Shown: in pieces, positions 37,501 through 59,221 of the stretch
Position numbering within the stretch: the first letter of the stretch is position 1
How the letters are laid out: each line of letters opens with the position of its first letter
From: Cucumis sativus
Lineage: Eukaryota > Streptophyta > Magnoliopsida > Cucurbitales > Cucurbitaceae
DNA length: 64,000 nt
Direction of reading: 5' to 3'
Assembly (NCBI RefSeq): GCF_000004075.3
Contig: NC_026660.2
Coordinates: forward strand, 20,339,498 to 20,403,497
The notes under the pieces: generated by a model
Told to the model about the DNA's origin: nothing
Databases searched by the model: none
Seen by the model: the letters and a program-made list of their open reading frames with translations, nothing else
Made by a program: the position numbers and the translations under genes

Positions 37501-38328
37501 CTCACAACCAGAAGCCCATGATGTCAAATTGCAATTCTTGTTGAGTTTCAAGAAGGAACCGCTTGCAGGATTTTGAAGAATGATACTATCAAAGTAAAAG
37601 TTGACTTCTGCTGCAGTACACAGACGCTTTGTGAAATCTCCTGTCGCAAAACCAACACAAGATAGAAATCAACACCATGTGACTGAAGGTAACTATTACA
37701 AAAATGGAAGAGTTTTCTTTTTTATTTTTCTTCTTTCTCCTTAAGGATTACTCATACCATTGGTCTTCTGAAAGCAAGAAGACAAGAACTCCAGATTAGA
37801 ATAGTTAAAGGCTCTATTCCAATCAGCATCCCTAAAAAGCCATCAAACCATCAAAGTTTCAGACTGAATGAAAATCTAAGGAAAATGTAAAAGGATATTA
37901 GAACACTTCAAAACTAAGAATCATTAAGCTAAAACAAAAAAAGGCGCCAAGCTCAAGATTTCATAATTGAACTTCATATCACATCTCAGAAATCCAGAAA
38001 TAAGTAAAGTGCCAACCAAGATTCCACATCCATTCCATTTCTCTCAAATTCTCAACAGCCAAACAGAGCAAAAATTTGAAAGTACAAGGATTAAAAAAAA
38101 AACTCACGTGTCCCTGGAGCAAAAACGGAAGCGGGTACTGAGTTCTGTGTTAATGGTTGAACTCAAATTGGAGAGCTGACCATTGGCAATCGACAAGATA
38201 AATGGAAGTGCTGCAGGGCTGGCAAGCTGATTGGCATCCACATTCTGGCTATAAACAAACTGATTCCAGCTCAAACCGAGGAGGAGTAAAAGAAAGAAAA
38301 CGAAAGAAATTGTGGGGATCAAGTTCAT
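31520..38328 (-). CDS. ABCG24: ABC transporter G family member, ABCG24/28 type
   Basis: Half-size ABCG exporter: signal-like hydrophobic start (about 1-25), Cys-rich extracellular domain, one membrane span near 300, then nucleotide-binding domain and C-terminal membrane domain. Exons 5' to 3': 38328-38108, 37831-37758, 37640-37365, 37091-37028, 36938-36792, 36648-36614, 36504-36431, 36215-35293, 34453-34157, 34048-33563, 33341-33193, 33018-32729, 32629-32496 and 31676-31520. They join in frame to 1,108 residues, close to Arabidopsis ABCG24/28. Walker [10 protein letters not shown] is at about 537-545, signature ISGGQ at 644-648, and Walker B LLLDE ends at Glu669. The last exon ends FRRK then TGA. 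Wording around DLSHRKTP and DLSKADKV is nearer ABCG24 than ABCG28, from memory. The substrate is unknown; ABCG28 acts in pollen-tube secretion. It must work as a dimer. Confidence 0.93.
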
Positions 38329-48720: not shown

Positions 48721-50286
48721 GAAAATGACGTCTACATTTTCCATCTTTTGTTATTCCTTAAGAACTTGCTTGTTGTTCTCAAATTAGTGCTCAACCATTT
48801 TTTGTTCATCATGAAGGGATAAATTCAGTTGTTACAGATAAAGTTTTGTTTGTTTCTTTGTTTGTTGTTTAAATTGACGGGGTCTAAAGCTTATTGATAT
48901 TCAGTTTTTTAATTTAATTCCTATTGGGTAATTTATTTATTTTTGTATGTAATTTTTAGTTTTGGTTTTGGGCTTCCTTGTTTCTAGTTAGTGCTACTGA
49001 TAGTTGTCGTTAGATTGTAAATTTAATTATCATTAAGAACTTTTTTATTGTGTGACCTTTTCTTATATGTATGATTGTTAGTGATTCTGTTGCTTTTGTG
49101 GTGCCTTTAGAAATTTAATGGTAAACTAGTTTTTGGGTATCTCCCATTTGGAGTTATTTTAAACTTGCAAGACACGAAAAATGTTTATGTACTTGCTTAT
49201 AATTGCAGTTTTAGTTCTGTGTCTTTACCTTTTTTCTGTTTATGGAGAAGAAATTCTTTTGCAATGTTTGATTTATTATTTATCTTTTCCATTTGTATGA
49301 GTGTTTAGTGCTTTTATTTATAGGTATTACATTTTTCATTATTGAAAATTGTCTTAACTTTATTTCCTTCGTATATGCTCTCCAGGTTGGTAGAAATTAC
49401 TTTAGCCCATTGTATGTCGTAGTTTATACTGTGGATTTGTGAAGTGGTGCATGGGAAAAGTAAGTTTATTTGTTCATACATTTAAATTTACGAACTTCAG
49501 TAATTTGGCTGGTTCTTTTACGCATATAATTATGCTTTATGATATACATCAACAAGAATAGTGCTTATGCTTTCTTTTTTATCTTGTACCCTCCTAAAGA
49601 AAAAGGATGGAAGTGATAGTCTTGCAGTTCAACTTGCGGATGAGAAGCACTATGTTTATTTCTTATGTCTAGTTACAATTTTGTTTCACCTGCATAGCTA
49701 ATTAGAGGGTATATGGAAGTTTCACTAACCATCTCATTCTGTTTATTTTTATGAAGGGTTGGGAGGGGGATGAAAATTTTATCACAGAAGTTTGGGCACT
49801 CTATTTATTCTTCTATAATCTCAATATTGTTTTTTTTCAATCTTATATCAATGATAATGTTCCTTAATTACCTTTAAATAGCTTTAAGTAGAACCTCCTC
49901 ATAGGTAATGTTCTTGAATCATACTCTAAATGAGATTTTGTTTTCTTACTAGGTTTGGAAGAATCCATTTGAAGCATTGAAGCCAATTTGGAGCAATTGA
50001 TTGATATAACATCTTTTGTATGGTTGGTAGCAAACTCTTATTCAATGTATTGATTTTAGGTTTCTTGCTTCCAATGTCAATGTATATTGTTTTTTTATGG
50101 AAACTACATTTGAACTAAACAAATGGTTATTAGTCAACGGGTGTACGAATACTACAAAGTGTATCATTATGCATATATATATATTAAAATGTTGACTTAT
50201 TGTTTTCATATGGGTGTGATTCAACGACAAGAAAAACAGGAATTGAGAAATACACAATAGGGAAAAAATATCATAATATTTTTTTC

Positions 50287-50508
50287 TGTCGTCAATACCG
50301 AAACAATGACAATTAAATTTTATAAAAACTGTCACGATTGGTCTATCCATGACAGGAAAAAATGTCGTAATATATTAATTCATGACATTTTCATAATTGT
50401 CGTCAATATCGAATCAATGACAATTAAATTTTACAAAAAGCTATCACAATTGACATATTCTTGACAGTAAACAATATCATAATATAAGAATTCGTGACAT
50501 TTTTGTAG
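50287..50508. repeat. Subterminal tandem repeat of CACTA element, about 111 bp x2
   Basis: Two diverged copies in tandem, each starting TGTCGTCAATA, begin at 50287 and 50398 and share the order CAATGACAATTAAATTTTA, a TCACRATTG-like box and a CATGACATTTT or CGTGACATTTT box. The sequence just before the first copy resembles the tail of a third. They lie in the right subterminal region and are probably transposase-binding repeats. Confidence 0.8.
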
Positions 50509-50736
50509 CTGTCATAAATATGTAAATAGTGACAGTTATTTGTTGTCATAAAAAAATGATATTATTTGTTGTCATAAAATACTAATTAATGACATTTATT
50601 TTTTGTCATGAAAAAAAAAAATCGTGACAATTTCAGAATGACTTTCCACAACATACATATTATGATTGTAAATAATTGTCACAGATTTTTTCGTGACAAA
50701 AAATAACTATCATCGCAAACCATTTTTCTTGTAGTG

Positions 50737-51280
50737 TAGGTTCTTTCTCTAGACTACATGAATTTAGTTTTTAATTGAATAAGAGAAATGACAATTCAAG
50801 TATTAAAAACTAATACTTCAATCTCTTCTGTGAAATACTTTTAAGTACATATTGTAAATGTAATTTAATCATTTAGACGAATATTAAAATATCATTTCAA
50901 ATAGATTCTAAATGGAACAAATTAAAGGTTTTATTTTGAATTCACTAAGCGTAAATAGAAAGTTGCAGCCGTAATATGCAATCTGAAGAACAAAGATCAA
51001 AATTCCATTACAAAAACAAAATGGTTTTGATTGATATCTAAATTTCGAGTGAAGGACCAACTTATGAAAATAAATCAACGTATTGGCATCACAAGGGGGA
51101 TGATAACATAGTTATCAATCAACAAATTTAACTCACTTGCGTTTCACGGGGAAACATGATATTCTATATAGTTTCTCTATTATAATTCAATATACATTCT
51201 GAAAAAAAGTACACAAAATCTACCAGATCTATGCTGCATAACCACCGAGTGTTGGTGTGGTGTTTGGGATGACGAAATCT
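50737..51280. other. Spacer between CACTA element and AVT1 3' end
   Basis: About 540 AT-rich bases after the transposon's right target duplication. The part nearest 51280 should be the 3' UTR of the minus-strand AVT1 gene. Nothing else is seen. Confidence 0.5.
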
Positions 51281-54200
51281 TCAGCTGCTCAATTCCTCAA
51301 CGATTTTCTTGAGAGCTGAAAATGATCCAAATGCTGATGCAACAACTCCTACCGCTATAACTATGCAACAAAGGGCTCTCTGTGGAAGGAGAAAACAGGA
51401 GGGAGGGTGGAAAATATGTAATTGTAATCCTTCTATGTGCTCTTGTATAGTTAAATGCAAATAAAGGAAAATTTGAGGGTGTTTTTACCTGCAAAATTGT
51501 TACCTTCCCCCTCAAGATGCTCAGGTAGCAAACACAAGGGAGTATTAAAGTCTGCAGTAAGGCACATTTAATAGTTCAGCCATAAAAAAAGAATGAGTTT
51601 AGGCTCTCCATGGTGCAAGGATGAGCAAACTTACCACAAGCATTGTTAGCAATGATCCAATCAATGACATCATAAGACCTGCGCGTTGGAGAAGTGAAGA
51701 TTTTCAAATATTGGTACTCTCGTTTTTTCAGGGCCAAAAGTTTCTTAATGCTTAGAGAAAACACAATTAAACGAGACATAGAAATGTGAAGATATACTTA
51801 CCAAAAAAGGGGACAGAAAGGCCGACTAATAAGGTAGAAAATACAAGTCCAGTTCTAATTAGGATGGAATAAATGTGAGACTTAGGATGATTTGGTGGTA
51901 TGAACTCCTCCAGACTCATTGCAACTGGAGATATTGTTAATGCATATGTGGGACTAATTAAGGAAAAACATCGTTTTTCTAATTCAAATACACTTGCAAA
52001 AATTATGGTAAAGGAAAATAAGGAAATATAAAACGATGAAAATAAGAGTGTGTTTGGGATGCATAAAAAAAAGTGTTTATTTTGAAAAGAAACTCTATCA
52101 ATAAAAATTGTTTAAATAAGTTTTGAAAGTGTTTTAAAGGTTATTAAGAGTGACTGTCGAATATTTTAATTTTTTTCAAAATAAATTATTTTCAAAATTA
52201 AACACTCCCCCAGAAAAAATCCTAATATTAGTTTTTGATATTATGAGTAATATGCATGCTGCTCAGCACATTATGAGATGTGAGGCCCAAGACCCTTCTG
52301 GAACCAAGAATATGGATATGAAGTAACAAGTACATATCACACTTTGAAAGGATATTTGGTAAAGGGGTTGACAACCTGCCAAAGAACAAATAAGAAACAT
52401 GAGAAAAATAGTTTTCTGGCAGTGACGGTAGATATCGAGTACAAGATTAACAACATAACAACTTCAGGACACTGAAAACAAGAAAATGCAAGCGAAACCG
52501 AGCACTAAAACATGTTCGATTCGTCAAGGAATGATCCGGAAGATCCCTTCATTGACTTTACGACCAAATCATATCAATCTAAACATTTGATATGTCTAAT
52601 GCTTTCAAATCACAAATGAGCTTTCTTCAGCAAACAAACAATACAGCACGTGGCCAACTTGCCAATTCTAATAGTAATGTTCTAAATATAAGAGTATTTA
52701 AAAACAGGAGTACACTTAAAGTTAATGTCATCATGCCAATAGCCACCATTCCATATTACGAAGAAATAAGACATCAAAATTTCTTTCTTAAACTTCACAG
52801 CACGTCATGTAAATATGTAGCAGTTTGGTGGAACTATATATATATATTTGGAAACGAAACAAAATTGGTTATTTTGACAAGGATAAAAACATAAGAATCA
52901 ATCACCGTACCGTAGTCCACACAGCGATCTTTGAAGCAACCAAATCCTGGGGCAGGTTAAGAGTGTACTGGGATAATGTCGACTCTCCAAACATTAAGTA
53001 TCCCATAACAGCGACTCCAGCATACATCAAAGTACAAATACCAAAACTGCATTTTAAAGAAAATTAGATGCTATTAATGTTATAAACATCTTAGATGGTG
53101 ACTGTTTTTTTTAATAGTTGGCAGGATCTCATAGCTTAGACGCTCATTCAAAAGGGTGACAAACAGATATATTGCATTACAAAGACCTTAAATGAAAAAG
53201 TCAATTCCCATTTTTTCTTTACATTATACTACATAAATGAGGATCAATAATTTTGATTGAAGCCAACTTCATCAACTAGGTAAATGATTAAAAAAAAAAA
53301 AGAACACTATAAGACTTGTTTATTATATTAGTACAATTGCGGGGATGGAGGATCAAACCTCCACCTTGATTTACATGATTTTAGCTCACTTTGGTTTACA
53401 TTATTAATACTTTGGTTTGCCTAAACCTCTAAGAAGGAAGGTCAAAACAATTAACATTGAGTTTAGCTCACTTTGGTTTACATGATTAATACTTCAAAGT
53501 CTGTATAATTAAGAATGATTCATACTTAAATCAAATTAATCTACATGCAGAAGCAGACATTAGGAGATGAACAAGATAAATTGTTTCTGAAAATGGATGA
53601 AGATTTCACATTACCATGTTAAAAGGACTGCTGGGAATTGGCTTTGATTACCCATTGAGCTATAGATATTAGGAAATACAGCATGTCCTGAGTAGCAGAA
53701 ACCGTACAGACCCAGAGCAACTGGGAGACTCGAGAGGTTCAGTGGAGTCACCTTTCCGTGGAAACCAACATCATCTACCAACCCAACCCAGAACAAGCAT
53801 AAAACAACCACAATTGATGCAACAACTCCACCAGCTGCAAGGAAGGAAAAAGGAAAAGAAAATAAAATAAATCATTCATAATAATTTTTTGGAAGCCCGG
53901 CTTAAATTAGGAACATTTCATAAGAACAGAATAATAAGAAAAATCATTTTTTAACAGCAGCATCTGTCTGTGCAAAGAAGCAAACAGACGCTTTAGTTTG
54001 AGTAATGTCATTGATACTTGAGAATTCTAATAGTTGTTTGACACATGTCATTCACTCGTTAGCATAATAGGTATGTGTTATACAAGTTACTTGATAGGCA
54101 TCATATTCAAAACTTCTTGTGTTGAACATATAAATGGATGAGCCTTATTGACTTTAGCATCTTGTATAAATGATATATAATTAATAAACTTGTTCTTGCC

Positions 54201-57200
54201 AGATCTGTATTCTAGACCTTTAGAAAAAAAACACAGCATTGCGTGTTTTTGCTGTGTCAAGTACGTGGTATCATATCCATTTATTGTGAGTATTCAAAGC
54301 AGAATATTTTGGTTAAAAATTGATCTACGATGCTACGCTAGGCAATACTAATTGATCTACGATGCTATGCTACGCTATGGACAGTAGGTTGCAGCTATAA
54401 ACAAAAGTAAAGCAGCTAATATAAGACCAACTAACAAAACTCATAAACATATACATGTATATAGGCGTGATAAATCTAGCCAGCTTACCAGAGATATAAC
54501 TTAGAATACTGAGATCTCGAAGATAAACGGTTGGAAGAACAGCAAGCGCAGTTGCTATAGCGAATAAAAGGTGTGCATTTATTTCCAATCCGCCAAAACT
54601 AATGTGCGCACGGGGAAACAATGAAGACAGATTGTCGCTCTCCAGAATTACATACTCAATACAAGAAGCCTGCAAGACTAGCATATCTAGTTGGGTCACT
54701 TTGTCAACATAAAGCTTAATTTGATTTGTTGTTCAAAATCATTAGGAAAATGAAAAAACACGTTGCATGATTAGCAGAGACACAATATCATCATGCAAAG
54801 TACTGATTGGGTCATAATGCAGATACCTTCCCACGTTTTATTTTAACTAGAAACAAAGATTAAGCTTTAGCTTTTCTGTTTTCATAACATCTTTGTCAAA
54901 ATTTTGAGGTTACAATTATGTTCTGGTTTAAAATTCACTAATATTGCTAAAGATTTTACCTATTGGGAATGAGATGAACGAGGGTAATAAGGTTGAAAGA
55001 TTCTCTACCCTTATCTGAATAAGAATGAGAATAAATGGATTTGTGGAACAGAAATAACCCAAAGACTATCAGGATGGCAATGGTTCTTGCTTCTATACTA
55101 AGCTCCATTTTTTCAAAATAGAAAAGCCGTTTTGCCTATTCAATTAGCCAAAGGTCGAAAGAAGCTACGCTACAAAATCCGACATGAACATGGATATGGA
55201 TGGTTAAGCTTCATATATATTCTCAGTCATTTTCTGAAACACTTGATAAGCATCTGCCGAAGACATCAAGCAACATATGCAAAAGAGAGTTTTGAACATT
55301 TGTACTAATATTTTTAAGTGTTATTTTCTTTTTCTGGTTGTCACAATTAAAAGAAAATCATCATACAAATAAGTAAGAGAAACAATGAAAAGTGAAGATA
55401 TATGTAGGTAGATATTAACAAGCTCAGCTAACAAACCTAAAATTTAATATTTCTCGTTGCTTCAGAAAAAAAAAAATATATATATATATTTCTTTTCCAC
55501 CACGGATGCTGAAAGCGACCAAAAATCAAAATGTGGTTCTTAAGTAACAAAAAGAGAGCTGGCGGACAAGAGACTTGCCACTTGGTTTGTGATGTAGGAT
55601 ATTAAATTTAGGCAGGTCCCTTACGTACGTTAACCATTATCCAATAAAATATTAAAATAAAAAACCCATTATCAAATAAAATAATAATAATGAATTATAA
55701 TTAAAAGCCGGAGACAAAAAAATAGTACTTACGTATAATTCCACGTATAATACGATCTGCATACACAAGAATTCGAAACAAAATATTAAACAAAAGAAAT
55801 TCAGCAAAGGAAAGAAAATATAAATAGTTTAAATCAAATATTGGTTCATTTTCCGTTAGGTTTCTATCCTAGTTATACTTAAGAGTTTAGGTAGAAAAGA
55901 AAAGAAAAATATTATTTATTTATAACAAAATGAATCAAAATATTTAGAAAAATATATAGTAAAATATCATATATCACCGTAAGTCAAGATAAATTATTAT
56001 ATTTATCTATCTATGTCATAATTTTGAAGTAAATTGTGATGAGTTTTGTTATTAAAAGTAATTTTTTAGTAATAAAAGTGGGAGTGGGTGAAGAATAAAA
56101 TTATATTAAAAAGTAATACCGAGATGGCGACACGACCCATGGCACCAAAAGCAGCTTGGCCAATGTCAGGGTAAGTTTCAAGGCCAGGTCTGCTATCCAA
56201 ACAAGCTCTCAAAAGGATTCCAGTGTAGAAAGAAAGTACTGCAAATATCATCAATATTGATAGCCCCATCCATCCTCCTTCTTTCATTGCATATGGTGTT
56301 GAAAGTATGCCCACTCCACATAGCACATTGATCCCTACCAAAATTACAATCAACTTCCATCAATATTTCATATAAACCAGTAGTAGTGACTAATAAATTT
56401 AAATTTATTAGAACCAAAAGAACTAAAATTGGACAAAAACTTGGTCAAAGTATAGTACAGTAAAAGGACAAATTTTGTAATATTACCATTAACAACAGCT
56501 TGGCCGAAGGTACTATGGCGAGAAATGGGAAGGCCATGAGAATCAATGACGACGGGTTTGTCTTTGTCATCTCTTCGGACGGAAATGGAAGAGCGGCGGG
56601 AAGGAAGTGAAGGGCCGAGAGGAGAGTGAGGAGGGGCATGTTTATGGGGATCGTCAATTACTGTGGGAAGAAGAGGTTTAGAAATGGAAGAAGAGAAGGC
56701 TTCAGGAGTGAATCTCCTTGTCAATGATGAAGAAAGAAATGAGCTTCCAAATCTTGCTAATGATGGAGTTCCTAATAACCCAATACTTGGTGAATGTACA
56801 CTTCCCAACATATCAATTGATTGCCTGCCCAACAAGTACCATTATACATCCTTAATTCAAAATTAATAATAATTGGACACCTAATTTTTTAACATAAAAC
56901 AAATTTATAAAATTAGTTTATATTCAATTCGGGATGGATGACAACCTCAATCATTTGGAACATATAGGTTGGGTGAGTAAAAAAATCAGTTCACCATTTG
57001 GTTCATCAATAATTAAAGATGTTTTATCATTCGTTATTCATATCAACACATATTTTTCACTGAAACACTCACATTTCTTACTTTTTTATTCATGTCAATT
57101 CCTCCAAGTAGTCCTCTATAATTATTATCAACTCAATGTTTTTATCTTTAACCAAATGTTCGTTTGGTATTTTGTAAGTAAATATAGTTTAATGTTAGAT

Positions 57201-59221
57201 TATAAATAAATTATCAATCACATTTTAAAATATCATAATGTATTTGTGATAAATTAAGATAGTTTCTAATATTATTAACATATTATGAATAAAGTACAAA
57301 TTCTAAAATATTGTTCGTAGTTAACCCTACCTTCATTTAGAAAAATTGTCATAAATAAGAATTTTTTTTAGGGAAGATTAAATAGTTGTTCAATTTTTTA
57401 TTTTTGAAAATTTTTAAATTTATTTATAATGATAAAATAAGACGTGGCAACGGGCCAAATTTGGGTGGGAAAAAGGAAAAGAAAAGGAGAAGATTATATT
57501 GTTTTTGTTTGTGAGTTGTGAGATGTGACCATCAATAGTTGTTTTCAACTTAAAATCAAAAATATTTTATATTTATATTTTGACCCAGAAATAGTTTCAA
57601 TTTTAAAAATTATAGGTATCGTATGGTTTTCAAAAAAAGAAAGAAAAAAAGGACAACAACAGTAATTTAGAAAAGAATAAGTTTAAGAGTGTGGATGTTA
57701 AGTCAGAAAAATCACTTTTGGAAAAGACATACTTTATTAGGTGGAGGGTGTGACGACTCGTGAGTGGGCCTCTTCTCCCCAATAATCACCACGATACCCA
57801 AACAAGCCCAAAAACTTATCCATAATCAATAATTTTATGACTCTTTCCATATTCAATACCTCTTTACCCTCTCAAAAACTCAATAACTACAAATTTGACT
57901 ATAACTATATAATCTTCATCATAATGCAGAAACTATTTATTAAAATTTTATCCAATCATCATCTAACAAAAACTATATTTTAACTTTCTCATAAACATTA
58001 AATTTCCTACTTTATCAAATTCTAGGAATTATTTATAAATTTTATCAACTAACCTTTCCACTTACACCCAGTTTTAACATTTTAAGGTCTCATTAGTATT
58101 CTTTTATTGTTTGATTATTATATTGTTATGATTTGGGTTTTTCAAAAATTAGACTTGATTTCTTTCCATTTTCGAATCTACGTATATCTTAGTTTATTTA
58201 TTGAATTCTTACCAAAATTCTCAAATAAAAGAACTTTGGAAATTAAAATAATAACAAAAAATAAGTACTTTAGTCTTGATTTTTAAAAATTAAACAATAA
58301 ACCAAATAATTAAACTAACCATCTTGTTTTTTTTTCAAAATTAAACCTACATATGTTATCTATATTTTAACAATGATTTAAAAAATTAAGTCAAAATTTT
58401 AAATTTATTTTTATTTTCGAAATGGGCAACAATTCGACAACGAAAGAAAAAAAGATTGAGAGAAAATTAGCTTAATTAGAAAAATAACAAATAAAATGGT
58501 TACCAAACAAATAATCTTATTTCTTTTTAAAATTAAATCTTATTTTTAAAAGCTAAAAACCAAACTTCAATAGTTATCTAATTAAAATATGAATAGCTAG
58601 GGAATGAAAACTAAAATTTAATATTTTATTCTTCTAAAAAAATTAAATCTAACCCTTAAAAAGCTAAAAATCAATAGTTATTGTAGTGTAGTGGTGTGTT
58701 TGGATTATATTTAAAAAAACTAAAATGTTTGGAAAATTATTATAGAAGCTAAAATCATTTAAATAAAATTTTTAATTTAAAAAGTAAGTGGTTTTTTAAA
58801 AGAAAACTAAAATGTTTATAGGTGACTTTAACTAGATTTTTTAGTTCTATTTTAAATAAAAATAAATGTGTGAAAAAACATTTTAAAACCGACCCAAAAT
58901 TTTAAAATTTAACCTAAATTGATTTTTCTCAAAAAAAAAAAAAAAAGAGGCAGACTTAACCTTCCCTGGATCCCATCCCACCGTTACCTCAAAAAAATAG
59001 AGAAAGAAGGGGAGAAGTTGAGAGGAAGATCAGAAAGCGAACCTGTAACTTTGAGGCCAAGCGGCGGTATTATAAGAACTTGGTTGATTATGATTCTGAT
59101 TATCCGCCGATAAACCCGAAGAATCCGATTCGTTTCCGTCCTCATTATCGATTTCCTTCTCCAAATCTTCATCATCAGAACTTTCAATGTAAAAACTACG
59201 ATCCGAAACAGAGTTCTTCAT
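51281..59221 (-). CDS. AVT1: Vacuolar amino acid transporter, AVT1 type
   Basis: An AAAP/SLC32-like carrier of 554 residues. AVT1 proteins move neutral amino acids across the tonoplast using the proton gradient. Exons 5' to 3': 59221-59043, 56824-56487, 56334-56120, 55756-55733, 54669-54489, 53834-53615, 53046-52911, 52375-52356, 51947-51802, 51678-51635, 51551-51489 and 51379-51281. Exon 1 ([14 protein letters not shown], acidic tail, WPQSY) matches the AVT1A-C N-terminus. It is separated from exon 2 by 2.2 kb, and joining AG to GCAATC restores RQSID. The membrane core starts at [15 protein letters not shown] (about 174). Roughly 10-11 spans follow, including [11 protein letters not shown]. 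Exons 4 (24 nt) and 8 (20 nt) are micro-exons. The intron after exon 8 fits only AT-AC splicing. An exon-2-only start near 56811 would lose the conserved N-terminus. Confidence 0.92.
51948..52355 (-). other. Probable U12-type AT-AC intron of AVT1
   Basis: Read on the minus strand, the intron begins ATATCCTTTC at 52355, a perfect U12 5' splice site. It ends CCCAC at 51948. A branch sequence TTCCTTAAT at 51965-51957 places the branch adenosine about 10 bases before the 3' end, inside the 10-20 base window of minor-spliceosome introns. Using these ends joins ACC-AA with A-TAT-GCA and gives the conserved PFTKYALT. No GT-AG pair restores this frame. The motifs are seen directly; splicing is inferred. 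Confidence 0.88.
52046..52210. repeat. MITE-like inverted repeat within AVT1 U12 intron
   Basis: AGTGTTTATTTTGAAAA at 52072-52088 pairs, with a one-base gap, with the reverse complement of 52189-52206. Outside it, GAGTGTGTTTGGGA (52046-52059) loosely mirrors the CACTCCCC at about 52203-52210. The unit of about 165 bp could be a small non-autonomous DNA element. No clear target-site duplication was found. Confidence 0.5.

Follow-up and report, generated by a model that had tools for sequence, protein, structure and literature searches.

Intron 8 of an AVT1-like amino acid transporter gene, read on the minus strand from 52355 to 51948 of the window (the whole 64,000-nucleotide stretch of cucumber DNA analyzed here), is almost certainly an A-type (AT-AC) U12-dependent intron. 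An earlier note on this DNA had proposed a minor-spliceosome AT-AC intron in such a gene, and the proposal draws support from the protein family, the exon structure, the 5′ splice site, the branch element and its distance from the 3′ end, the same codon position in three paralogues and the uninterrupted residues of intronless paralogues. The identification appears well supported—though it adds one more member to an established class of introns and is not surprising in itself. The features concerned are as follows.

51281..59221, minus strand: coding part of the AVT1-like amino acid transporter gene, 554 aa in 12 exons (open-frame gene model, Pfam and PDB sequence match)
52376..52910, minus strand: intron 7, ordinary GT-AG, 535 nt, upstream of the 20-nt exon (gene model and paralogue comparison)
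52356..52375, minus strand: exon 8, 20 nt, between the GT-AG intron and the AT-AC intron (gene model; 20 nt long in 4/4 intron-bearing genes)
51948..52355, minus strand: intron 8, AT-AC, 408 nt, phase 2, with U12-type signals (gene model; position common to three paralogues)
52347..52355, minus strand: 5′ splice site ATATCCTTT (letters; 9-mer identical in 4/4 intron-bearing genes, the window gene included; predicted duplexes with U6atac and U11)
51957..51965, minus strand: branch-site element TTCCTTAAT, in which 51958 is the presumed branch A, 10 nt from exon 9 (letters and paralogue comparison)
51948..51950, minus strand: 3′ splice site CAC (letters)
51802..51947, minus strand: exon 9, 146 nt, starting with the last base of a split Lys codon (gene model and paralogue comparison)
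51954..52340, minus strand: possible in-frame GT-AG alternative adding seven residues, a rival that is not preferred (junction scan)

When 52356 is joined to 51947, the 554-aa frame of the gene model stays open across all 12 exons, and ten of the 11 introns are GT-AG, the eighth being the remaining one. Both the intact frame and the GT-AG form of all other junctions speak against a decaying or unexpressed copy whose splice signals are relics, a reading to which we attach next to no credence. The product scores 224 bits against Pfam PF01490 (Aa_trans, E 3.6e-66; family cut-off 25.6), which places it among the AAAP amino acid transporters, and its PDB sequence matches comprise proton-coupled amino acid transporter 1 (E 2.7e-12) and, at E 2e-5 and weaker, auxin transporters (five distinct sequences altogether). 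The Pfam Aa_trans domain is common to the window gene and the AVT1 members of the AAAP family; the AVT1 name is taken over from the earlier note and is used here as a putative assignment. Elsewhere in the window, repeats with a spacing of ~111 nt and inverted arms occupy 50260-50740 and adjoin TTTCTTGTAGTG at 50725 (reverse complement CACTACAAGAAA), which we take to resemble a CACTA-type transposon end.

U12-type AT-AC introns have the consensus ATATCCTTT at the 5′ splice site and TTCCTTRAY close to the 3′ end. In intron 8, ATATCCTTT matches the U12 5′ motif at 9/9 bases (scored against the consensus, not a position matrix), TTCCTTAAT fits TTCCTTRAY and puts the presumed branch A 10 nt upstream of exon 9, and the last bases are CCCAC (full end, TTCCTTAATTAGTCCCAC). 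The letters and coordinates given in the earlier note are thus all present on the minus strand, and its claim that the 5′ end, a branch element about 10 bases before the end and the 3′ end agree with the U12 consensus holds for each of the three. Set beside A-type U12-dependent introns in general (AT-AC, AT-AN), intron 8 has in common the 5′ ATATCCTTT, the branch element TTCCTTAAY 10–12 nt from the end and the AC end, and differs in no feature compared. The same note overstated its case in calling AT-AC introns a small minority even of U12 introns, as they make up 26% of these in Arabidopsis, 23% in soybean and 13% in maize, according to an excerpt of PMC7367187. Among the matches listed for literature on U12 introns with amino acid transporters, AVT1 or plant microexons, titles and abstract openings contain no description of this intron, which may already be in U12DB, ERISdb or supplementary lists.

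A rare U2-type AT-AC class, excised by the major spliceosome, does exist (PMC2831892, in part). The sodium channel introns of that class have the same terminal dinucleotides as intron 8, but carry G at +5 (PMC2831892, same portion), whereas intron 8 has C at +5 (CCTTT from +5 to +9) and, in addition, a U12 branch element; we consider it exceedingly improbable that intron 8 is one of them.

The chance of meeting these signals where they lie appears small. The motif ATATCCTTT occurs 2448 + 2446 times in the 226.6 Mb genome (reversed control pattern, 2379 + 2378), a frequency of ~1.1e-5 per strand position, and within the window it has two occurrences on both strands taken together, i.e., the intron 8 site and one at 37898. 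The pattern TTCCTTAA[CT] has four occurrences in the 128,000 strand positions of the window, or roughly 4e-4 for the ~14 places that the allowed distance range of a U12 branch site affords. With both treated as independent, arithmetic gives a joint chance of ~5e-9 for ATATCCTTT and a branch element at a junction fixed by homology and reading frame.

The exact register of the junction requires care. The first four intron bases (ATAT) are also the first four bases of exon 9, with no base common on the other side, and because of this repeat five registers produce an identical mRNA; AT…AC termini arise in one of the five, and in that AT-AC register only does the U12 5′ motif sit at the intron start. 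The earlier note had held that a single junction restores the conserved PFTKYALT, a claim that stands with one qualification: five registers give the same message, of which AT-AC alone fits the U12 signals. No in-frame, stop-free GT-AG pairing in the scanned range restores the sequence. Specifically, with the start of exon 8 kept, GT or GC donors from 52372 to 52286 were paired with last intron bases from 52011 to 51892, and none of the seven in-frame, stop-free GT-AG pairings yielded PFTKYALT. The pairing that preserves most of it would be an ordinary U2 intron with donor GTGATATGT at 52340 and an acceptor ending TTAATTAG at 51954, and would insert seven residues between K-Y and Y-A-L. Though in frame and free of stops, this intron is very unlikely to be the one used instead of the AT-AC intron: its extra residues would lie beside KYAL, where the genomic DNA of the four paralogue places lacking the intron (three different sequences) has no insert and where the AT-AN junctions of three intron-bearing paralogues yield KYAL; its acceptor would follow the U12 branch element by three bases; and it leaves a perfect U12 5′ motif unexplained. 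The same pairing, 51954-52340 on the minus strand, may be noted separately as a possible cryptic isoform at a minor intron.

The strongest support for the AT-AC intron is the comparison with paralogues, all within one genome, in which a protein search returned 41 matching stretches and from which seven AVT1-like places were retrieved. Three of the seven have an intron at the same place inside the Lys codon of KYAL.

C5:28518000-28526500 (L039): intron at the same codon, AT-AC
C3:32969500-32975000 (L040): intron at the same codon, AT-AA
C3:32981500-32985500 (L041): intron at the same codon, AT-AA

Successive exon lengths of 136/20/146 nt are found in all four intron-bearing genes (window gene, L039, L040 and L041), and in all four ATATCCTTT opens the intron. 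The element TTYCTTAAY is likewise present, and the distance from its eighth base to the following exon is 10, 12, 12 and 10 nt, respectively, in introns of 408, 364, 116 and 98 nt. The L039 intron ends CTAC and its next exon begins with G, so that the AT-AC register is unambiguous there. The introns of L040 and L041, which are neighboring paralogues, end CTCAA (i.e., AT-AA), an assignment that rests on the 5′ motif because the junction again spans a repeat. Plants do have AT-AA minor introns—in an excerpt of PMC10639083, non-canonical introns are ~4% of orthologous minor introns in plants, and AT-AA, the commonest, almost 75% of these—and L040 and L041 have them at the very position where the window intron ends in AC instead. 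Between the splice signals, the six pairs of intron interiors show identities of 0.42–0.63 vs. 0.42–0.60 for shuffles (same procedure, five shuffles per pair). As interiors thus align about as shuffled sequence does, the signals have been kept while the remaining intron largely drifted. Two of the six pairs exceed all of their own shuffles (window–L040, 0.57 vs. 0.49–0.54; window–L041, 0.63 vs. 0.47–0.57) and four do not, so that some relatedness persists among the interiors.

At the other four places (L042, L043, L044 and L045) the intron is absent, and query residues 382 to 552–554 fall within one exon. All four read NP-x-x-KYA or KYG in genomic DNA with no insert at the junction (NPICKYA, NPLSKYG and NPITKYA, three distinct sequences). 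Because this DNA runs straight through, the family reading is that of the AT-AC junction and needs no splicing assumption. Two more distant outgroups likewise align there free of any insert, though they lack KYA. L043 (C5:7640000-7643500) and L044 (C5:8393500-8396800) are identical over 3301 bases and lie 753 kb apart on one contig, the mark of either a recent duplication or an assembly duplicate.

Gain or loss of the intron was approached through a tree of ten sequences—the window gene, the seven AVT1-like paralogue places (L043 and L044 being identical) and two outgroups, with L070 and L071 excluded as too distant—which does not fix the root (support of 28/52 for the branch joining the outgroups to the intronless clade). 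The intronless paralogues lack several neighboring introns at once, which fits loss via a reverse-transcribed copy, and this may be how their intron disappeared. We also considered an intron common to the whole AAAP family and rejected it, as no shared position was found in 14 of 20 distant AAAP stretches inspected by eye. Where an exon end is recognizable in these distant genes, nearby introns lie at other residues (e.g., AUX1-type IHQ|FITFG and AAP-type AYQ|VFCQP); by eye, no ATATCCTT donor was seen in the region of the 14 stretches, among which the exon end of L056 is indistinct and L068 has no intron visible at the place.

Components of the minor spliceosome are encoded in the same genome. 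Genes for U12 (90.4 bits) and U11 (76.6 bits) are present, and U6atac has 12 matches above the family cut-off (best, 100.7 bits); two of the U6atac matches score at least 91 bits and ten score 33–63 bits, the weak ones perhaps being pseudogenes. U4atac was not found in the genome search, in which all controls were silent too. In silico, the genome's own RNAs form duplexes with the 5′ splice site of six pairs (U6atac) and seven pairs (U11), and U12 RNA pairs with the branch region at −10.1 kcal/mol. Pairing is better (−11.3 kcal/mol) for a stretch with TTTCCTTAT that lies farther upstream, ~70 nt from the intron's 3′ end; that distance is too far for a U12 branch site by the usual rule, and as this stretch outscores TTCCTTAAT we rejected the idea that duplex energy proves where the branch site lies. 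Exon matches to the CCDC84 (CENATAC) family occur at one place in the genome and those to the DIM1 family at three, the weakest on C7. As excerpted sources have it, both families are tied to the splicing of AT-AN or AT-AC introns: in human cells, A-type minor introns (AT-AC, AT-AA, AT-AG and AT-AT) require CENATAC (PMC8280824), and mutations of DROL1 affect AT-AC introns in Arabidopsis (PMC11039992, citing the original work).

We infer transcription of intron 8 and its removal at the AT-AC junction. In such splicing ATATCCTTT and TTCCTTAAT would be recognized by the U11 and U12 RNAs, U6atac would take the place of U11 on the 5′ splice site, and excision of 52355-51948 by the minor spliceosome would connect the 20-nt exon with exon 9 and recreate K-Y-A-L; this order of snRNA action is established for minor splicing. 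Translated in silico with intron 8 retained, the window gene runs into a stop after a few intron codons, and retention leads to a stop in each of the three paralogues as well, so that minor-intron splicing would be required for the full-length protein and retention would be expected to lower protein output. Skipping of exon 8 shifts the frame, as 20 nt is not a multiple of three.

What the analysis offers is a clear-cut minor intron of the A type, retention of which would leave a transporter truncated. It is a rather doubtful idea that AT-AC and AT-AA versions of one minor intron diverged within one genome's gene family, at the same codon and beside a 20-nt exon of constant length, and that their endings could set different levels of retention, thereby tuning transporters via the A-type branch of the minor spliceosome (CENATAC/DROL1). 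With AC and AA endings at a single site and paralogues devoid of the intron, the family provides a ready comparison for the evolution of minor-intron 3′ ends and for CENATAC/DROL1 dependence. The findings also suggest that, next to the 20-nt exon, gene models of AVT1-like genes should admit both AT-AC and AT-AA junctions.
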